51,203 nucleotides of DNA, from contig JAHZKP010000156.1 of assembly GCA_022600345.1 (NCBI GenBank), positions 1 through 51,203 of the forward strand, given 5' to 3'. A model generated the notes under the pieces. That model was not told the DNA's origin. It saw only the letters and a program-made list of their open reading frames with translations, and did no database searches. This document shows positions 48,744-49,812 of the stretch, one piece after another. Source of the stretch: Alphaproteobacteria bacterium. GTDB lineage: Bacteria; Pseudomonadota; Alphaproteobacteria; Rhizobiales; Hyphomicrobiaceae. A program made the position numbers and the translations under genes. The number at the start of each line of letters is the position of its first letter. Position 1 is the stretch's first letter.

Positions 48744-48974
48744 CATTAGCAGGGTACTCTTCGAAGATGGCGCCGAGCGTTGGTATGGGGATGGCAAACC
48801 TAGATGGAGAGTTGGACCAGACAAAAAGCCGCCAGAGTCGGCAGTTGAAGCGGATTCACAATCGAGGAAAAATATTAGGCAATTGCGCAAACGAGTTACT
48901 ATTTCCAATAATTGCGGCACATTGGCAGATCTATTGGAGGCGTGCTGGAGCGAAAACCGCTGCGGGAGTTTGGC
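48736..48974 (+). CDS. unknown gene, 3' end cut by the junction
   Basis: ATG 48,736 follows AGGGGAGGTGCTC and overlaps the double-HTH gene by 8 bp, so it is translationally coupled. The first ~80 residues ([27 protein letters not shown], then [13 protein letters not shown]) belong to this gene and have no family I can name. After about residue 80 the frame enters the antisense strand of the cyanobacterial hslO gene and stops at 49,035. The true C-terminus is missing from the window. Confidence 0.6.
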
Positions 48975-49812
48975 ATGTGATCTCAGCGCCTTTGTCTTCT
49001 TTGAGCATAATGTTGAGCTCATCTTTGCCAAATAATCTCATTGCGTTGATGCTTCTTTCTCTGCTGCAAGGGCAAGAAAATTGGATTGGTTGTAATGGTT
49101 CTCCAGCCGGGATTGGTTGAGGATCTAAGTCTGGAAACACATCTTTGAGAAGATTCTCAAGGTGATCCTGATTGTCACGCAGATGTTTGCTAAAGTTATT
49201 TATTTCACGACAGCGTTCCTCTAGTAAGGCAACCAAGGCTGGCTCTTCTGCTGCTTTAGGTAGTACCTGTACTAATAGTCCACCACTACATTCTAACCCT
49301 TCTTGATTGATTGTTTCGCCAACAAAGACGGCTGAGGGTGTTTGTTCTGAGTGCAGTAAATATGATGCAACATCTTCGCCAATTCCTCCACGAACTAATT
49401 CAACAGTGCTGCTAAATGGTTCTCCCTTGCCTTCGTCCCTTACAACATGAAGATAACCCGTGCCAGCAGCAGCATGGAAATCAAAGCTGTAGTGACCGGC
49501 TTCATCTTCAATCGGATCTAATTCAAGTTCTGGGTGTCCTACATACCCGCGAACGCCCCCATCCCTACCTGCATCGACAAACAGTCCACCGATGGGTCCA
49601 TCGGAGCCAATGCGCAAGTTCACACGGCCGTGTCGCACCTTCATCGAGCTGGCTAACAACAGCCCAGCACTCATCGCACGCCCGAGCATCACGGTCGTTA
49701 AGTAGGACAGGCGATGCCTCCGCCTCGCCTCGCGAGTGGCCTCTGTGGTGATCACCGCCACAAGCCTGATGCCTCCGCCAGCTGCCGTGGCCCGGACAAG
49801 GCAGTCACCCAT
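48975..49812 (-). CDS. hslO: Hsp33 redox chaperone, C-terminal zinc motif lost at the junction
   Basis: Starts at ATG 49,812. Residues 1-240 follow the Hsp33 fold as in Synechococcus: [80 protein letters not shown] and [11 protein letters not shown]. The C-terminal redox switch has its first pair in SCPCSRERS. Hsp33 normally continues to a second CxxC (ITC-HFC type). Here the sequence after KGAEITC is foreign (QTPAAVFAP) and the frame stops at 48,931. Hsp33 is a cytosolic holdase activated by oxidation and unfolding; without the second pair the zinc site cannot form. The gene lies 9 bp downstream of the ABC ATPase gene stop region on the same strand. Confidence 0.9.

Follow-up and report, generated by a model that had tools for sequence, protein, structure and literature searches.

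The window comprises all of contig C45 (51,203 bases), one of the 156 contigs that make up a genome of 4,087,476 bases rated 99.88% complete and 0.12% contaminated. Near its right end the genes of a host mobile element give way to marine Synechococcus genes, which run on to the end of the contig. The features around the switch are the following:

1..48978, no strand: host part of contig C45, linked to contig C78 through 48919-48978 (58 of 60 bases identical)
48183..48743, plus: small DNA-binding mobile-element protein (HTH_17, excisionase-like; HTH_17, E 4.4e-17)
48736..48978, plus: 5' part of an element gene whose remainder is C78:1-702 in the same frame; in C45 it gains a false tail (48979-49035)
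48919..48978, plus: overlap with C78:1-60, with two mismatches
48931..49812, minus: Synechococcus hslO (Hsp33), cut within the second CxxC, its last 13 codons being antisense host DNA (Pfam HSP33, relatives' alignment)
48971..48978, no strand: switch point TGGCATGT, identical on C78 and matched at 6 or 7 of 8 bases in seven Synechococcus loci
48979..51203, no strand: Synechococcus DNA, foreign to the host genome, to the contig end (alignments, tetranucleotides, search with a 10.8-kb locus)
49822..50466, minus: Synechococcus ABC transporter ATPase, putatively of the ECF type given in the initial annotation (Pfam ABC_tran, alignment)
50574..51023, plus: Synechococcus DUF3531 protein (Pfam, alignment)
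51159..51203, plus: Synechococcus rpsB, first 15 codons (45 bases), cut by the contig end (place in the Synechococcus locus)

The ends of two alignments place the switch to 8 bases. Since the Synechococcus-side alignment begins at 48971, from where it is unbroken to 51203, and the host-side alignment to C78 stops at 48978, the sequence changes within C45:48971-48978. The initial annotation had described an abrupt switch inside two genes at 48968..48982; the alignments to Synechococcus and to C78 bear this out and narrow the interval.

To the right of the join, C45:48971-51203 matched the metagenome-assembled genome of Synechococcus sp. SP2 (locus L005) at 92.3% and the single-cell genome AG-686-F08 (L004) at 88.8%, in both cases over 2,233 bases and in a single alignment to the last base; the alignments end at 51203 because the contig does. 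A third relative, AG-679-C18 (L006), aligned at 80.3% over 2,224 bases starting at 48983. The Synechococcus gene order is unbroken, and the Pfam families HSP33, ABC_tran and DUF3531 were found in the right-hand genes, while the rpsB start was recognised by its place, the next part of the locus (L004:3343-3627) aligning to the host's own rpsB on contig C85. The assignment of these four genes to marine Synechococcus, first made from the sequence by itself, is thus confirmed. In a comparison of tetranucleotide composition, proposed at that stage, 48979-51203 scored 0.141 towards cyanobacteria, outside the range of 44 host blocks of equal size (−0.179 to 0.034; 21 from C45:1-48000, 15 from C78 and 8 from contig C115) and inside that of 38 cyanobacterial blocks (0.044 to 0.149; from 14 of 43 loci, the homologous part excluded), although the same blocks also built both means and the comparison is a description, not an independent test.

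The 43 loci came from a query with hslO that returned 82 pattern stretches, 43 of which were made into loci. Cyanobacteria are named in the titles of 41 of them, the exceptions being L003 (Gammaproteobacteria) and L021 (Pelagibacteraceae). These two records (NYVG01000059.1 and NHGV01000011.1) carry a Synechococcus-like hslO, 96% and 72% identical to the protein of C45, and are probably misbinned contigs. In C45 the minus-strand frame reads as Synechococcus HslO and then turns, at the switch, to 13 host-derived residues, at a place where HFC(N/S)E(I/V)YKL stands in the four relatives compared; in L003-L006, the four Synechococcus loci examined at this end of the gene, hslO runs on normally. The cut thus falls inside the second zinc CxxC of HslO, after its first Cys. 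The initial annotation was therefore right to place the cut near this motif but not in placing it just before.

The host has its own hslO on contig C67 and its own rpsB on C85, each full-length when compared with the family model. When the 10.8-kb Synechococcus locus was searched against the host genome, it returned only the piece on C45 and two matches at 66-67%, one being the host rpsB on C85 and the other 407 bases on contig C121. Among 59 genomes, the host included, 47 had a match resembling the Synechococcus hslO, the host among them; apart from the copy on C45 no such match exceeded 37% identity (best E 1.5e-13), and this particular gene was absent from all 58 other genomes searched. The photosystem II family PF00421 had no match in the host genome, in a search that small Synechococcus pieces could escape. 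The 16S rRNA model RF00177 likewise gave no hit there, which says little, as 5 of 14 control genomes were missed in the same way. The initial annotation had offered, as its alternative, that an island was inserted into hslO. We reject this reading because C67 carries the host hslO intact, and the gene that is cut is a foreign one: the direction was wrong, a truncated Synechococcus hslO having been attached to a host contig at its end. We likewise rejected phage carriage of this DNA, since 48950-51203 had no match in 50,697 phage records and no relative of the hslO was found in viral contigs, a search that catches close relatives only. Nor did a search of the viral contigs turn up the exact join.

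On the left side, the plus-strand gene that starts with the ATG at 48736 loses its end at the switch, as had been noted initially, and gains a false tail to 49035. We searched the host genome with C45:48700-49300 and, besides the query itself, found a single match, C78:1-60, which is identical to C45:48919-48978 at 58 of 60 positions (the mismatches being T/G and A/C). The two contigs part at 48979, beyond which C45 shows Synechococcus identity only. C78 extends the cut gene in frame, reading CGSLAC and then RKCGRAMQRC, to a stop at base 702, its true end. There follow a DUF927 protein, a tRNA-Thr(CGT) at 2869-2944 and then housekeeping genes, which from their sequence we take to be hemY-, hemD-, hemC-, tsaD- and gpsA-like; one BLAST label, HemY of Rhizobium, agrees with the first of these names. 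In the host genome we found neither a second copy of C78:1-2860 nor one of the element that could be another partner for C45. It follows from the 60-base overlap, the in-frame continuation and the single copy of C78:1-2860 that the host's uninterrupted path runs from C45 into C78.

Outside this genome the left side had few points of comparison. The 1,179 bases that precede the join had no match in 198 other genomes among the first-look candidates scored, which are part of all. Uninterrupted relatives of the element gene were found neither in plasmids nor in phages nor in viral contigs (the last searched for close relatives only), and none of the neighbouring gene in plasmids; since no relative of the element gene was found elsewhere, it is C78 that attests to its wholeness. 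The first 15,000 bases of C78, by comparison, matched all six same-genus genomes examined, with long matches at 65-84% identity, and among the matches listed none starts before base 2863. This last result bears on the idea that the host part is in truth an insertion in a Synechococcus genome and that the contig was binned wrongly. The Synechococcus gene order, intact to the right of the join, would suit that idea, but the host part is tied by its sequence to C78, which from base 2863 matches 6 of 6 same-genus genomes, and the four loci L003-L006 carry on hslO normally, so that we regard it as extremely improbable.

A counterpart of the tRNA gene of C78 was found on C115. There, 16621-16665 is a 45-base copy of the 3' half of tRNA-Thr, at which no tRNA was called, adjoined by a tyrosine integrase gene (Arm-DNA-bind_3, Phage_integrase) at 16828-18126; on the other side of the copy are genes that in the same-genus genome G001 are found ~10-14 kb downstream of the same tRNA. 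Together with the tRNA-Thr at C78:2869-2944, the arrangement has the anatomy predicted for an integrative element in tRNA-Thr(CGT), one end of which would be on C78 (1-2868) and the other on C115 (16621-18126); its loci are L049, L077 and L078. The partial copy is 91% identical to the host tRNA on C78, 97.8% to the tRNA of G001 and G004 and 93.6% to that of G008, as expected if an element carrying its own tRNA end displaced the original end. The tRNA of the relatives resembles this copy more closely than it does the whole gene on C78.

The left part of C45, joined to C78 by the 60-base overlap, probably lies inside this element as well. It contains an IS110 gene and another transposase-like gene, and C45:28000-46500 gave only short matches, in five of six same-genus genomes, none longer than 338 bases among the matches listed (at most 40 first-look candidates were scored per genome). 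Several further details of these contigs were observed. C78:37682-37821 and C115:1-140 have 140 bases in common at 98.6%, in inverted order, and are probably a repeat at which the assembly broke. At C45:42238-42506 and 45387-45732 there are two inverted-repeat pairs (129 and 152 bases, 85-88% identity) that flank a TylF-like methyltransferase gene together with sequences resembling transposase remnants. Finally, ARAGORN called a 99-base tRNA-Ile(GAT) at C45:23499-23597 that overlaps the end of an IS110 transposase gene and is probably a false call.

We then read the bases at the join itself. A short stretch that both sides have in common, or nearly so, is present there, a feature absent from the initial annotation. 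The host has TGGCATGT at 48971-48978, the same on C78, and seven of the 43 Synechococcus-type loci, read at the join, were one or two bases off it (6 or 7 of 8 alike):

L005: TGGCAAAT
L004: TGACATGT
L003: TGGCAGGT
L009, L007 and L008: TGACAGGT
L006, read by the same offset, its alignment beginning 12 bases later: TGACAAGT

These counts come from relatives, the donor's own 48971-48978 not being among them, and none of the seven has all 8 bases. By hand calculation, the chance of at least 8 shared bases at a blind join is ~1e-4 (4^-8 x (1+8x3/4)), and ~5e-3 if only TGGCA is counted, the 5 contiguous bases found in the nearest relative, L005. Such a nearly shared stretch is what template switching would leave. 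A variant of the chimera, included in its probability and not additional to it, is that two fragments were joined by ligation in library making, or by the assembler, instead. The position of the foreign piece at a contig end would agree with this, but shared bases are improbable at a blind ligation by either count, and no run of N occurs at the join in the C45 sequence; we consider the variant unlikely.

The shared stretch could also serve illegitimate recombination in the cell, and we weighed whether Synechococcus DNA had recently entered the host mobile-element gene in this way in part of the population, with C78 as the uninterrupted version. In keeping with this, both versions are present in the assembly and the two differing bases of the overlap are such as variants might show. 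A genuine insertion should have two edges in the recipient, but there is only one, and the foreign DNA ends with the contig, the rest of the 10.8-kb locus being missing from the host genome except for the two 66-67% matches, one of which is the host rpsB. To the left of the join, the sequence is present in a single copy in the assembly, where collapsed variants would not show. Apart from the short shared stretch no signature of recombination was seen at 48971-48978: no integrase and, in agreement with the initial annotation, no IS end, att repeat or target duplication, and the integrase and partial tRNA described above belong to the tRNA-Thr site. A real transfer is, on this evidence, very improbable.

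Contig C45 is thus almost certainly a chimera of host mobile-element DNA and a 2.2-kb Synechococcus end piece, an artefact and not a gene transfer, because the true continuation of the interrupted host gene opens C78 in the same genome. This was the first choice of the initial annotation, and the host's own continuation at the start of C78 now supports it. The two sides come from different organisms, according to the 92.3% identity to Synechococcus, the link to C78 and the tetranucleotides, and each has its normal continuation elsewhere, the host gene in frame on C78 and hslO in four Synechococcus loci.

As to how the chimera arose, a marine Synechococcus that shared its sample, culture or sequencing library with the host would have supplied the end piece, which would have become joined to the host contig inside the 8 or fewer bases shared or nearly shared by both sides, probably by a template switch or by mispriming while the DNA was being amplified (MDA or PCR). 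The assembler would then have followed the chimeric read or molecule, so that the true path was left as a separate contig beginning 60 bases before the switch. The two overlap mismatches would fit errors of one chimeric read, or could be two strain variants instead. The length of the foreign piece also counts against the chimera: to yield 2.2 kb, either further Synechococcus reads or a single long chimeric molecule must have been present, despite an estimated contamination of no more than 0.12%.

Junctions of this kind have precedents. In the counts given by Lasken and Stockwell (2007; PMC1855051) for amplification chimeras, more than 70% of the junctions had 2-21 complementary bases; the segments came from one genome and over 85% were inverted, and where they lay more than 10 kb apart complementarity was found in only 34.8% (inverted) and 27.6% (direct). 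C45 resembles these MDA chimeras in that two separate segments are joined at a few shared bases, but its segments come from different phyla, and for it MDA is one candidate method of amplification. The authors of GUNC put the share of undetected chimeras among GenBank genomes at 5.7% (PMC8201837). As in the cases they describe, genes of different lineages lie on one contig, here in a genome rated as nearly complete and clean; at a guess, three foreign genes plus the beginning of one more may be too few for GUNC to detect.

The join in C45 is very probably an ordinary artefact and not a real feature, and it suggests that the sequenced sample or library contained marine Synechococcus. Left uncorrected, C45 would ascribe three Synechococcus genes (for HslO, a transporter ATPase and a DUF3531 protein) to a heterotroph and could be mistaken for a case of transfer across phyla; it should be split at 48971-48978, with the left part attached to C78.
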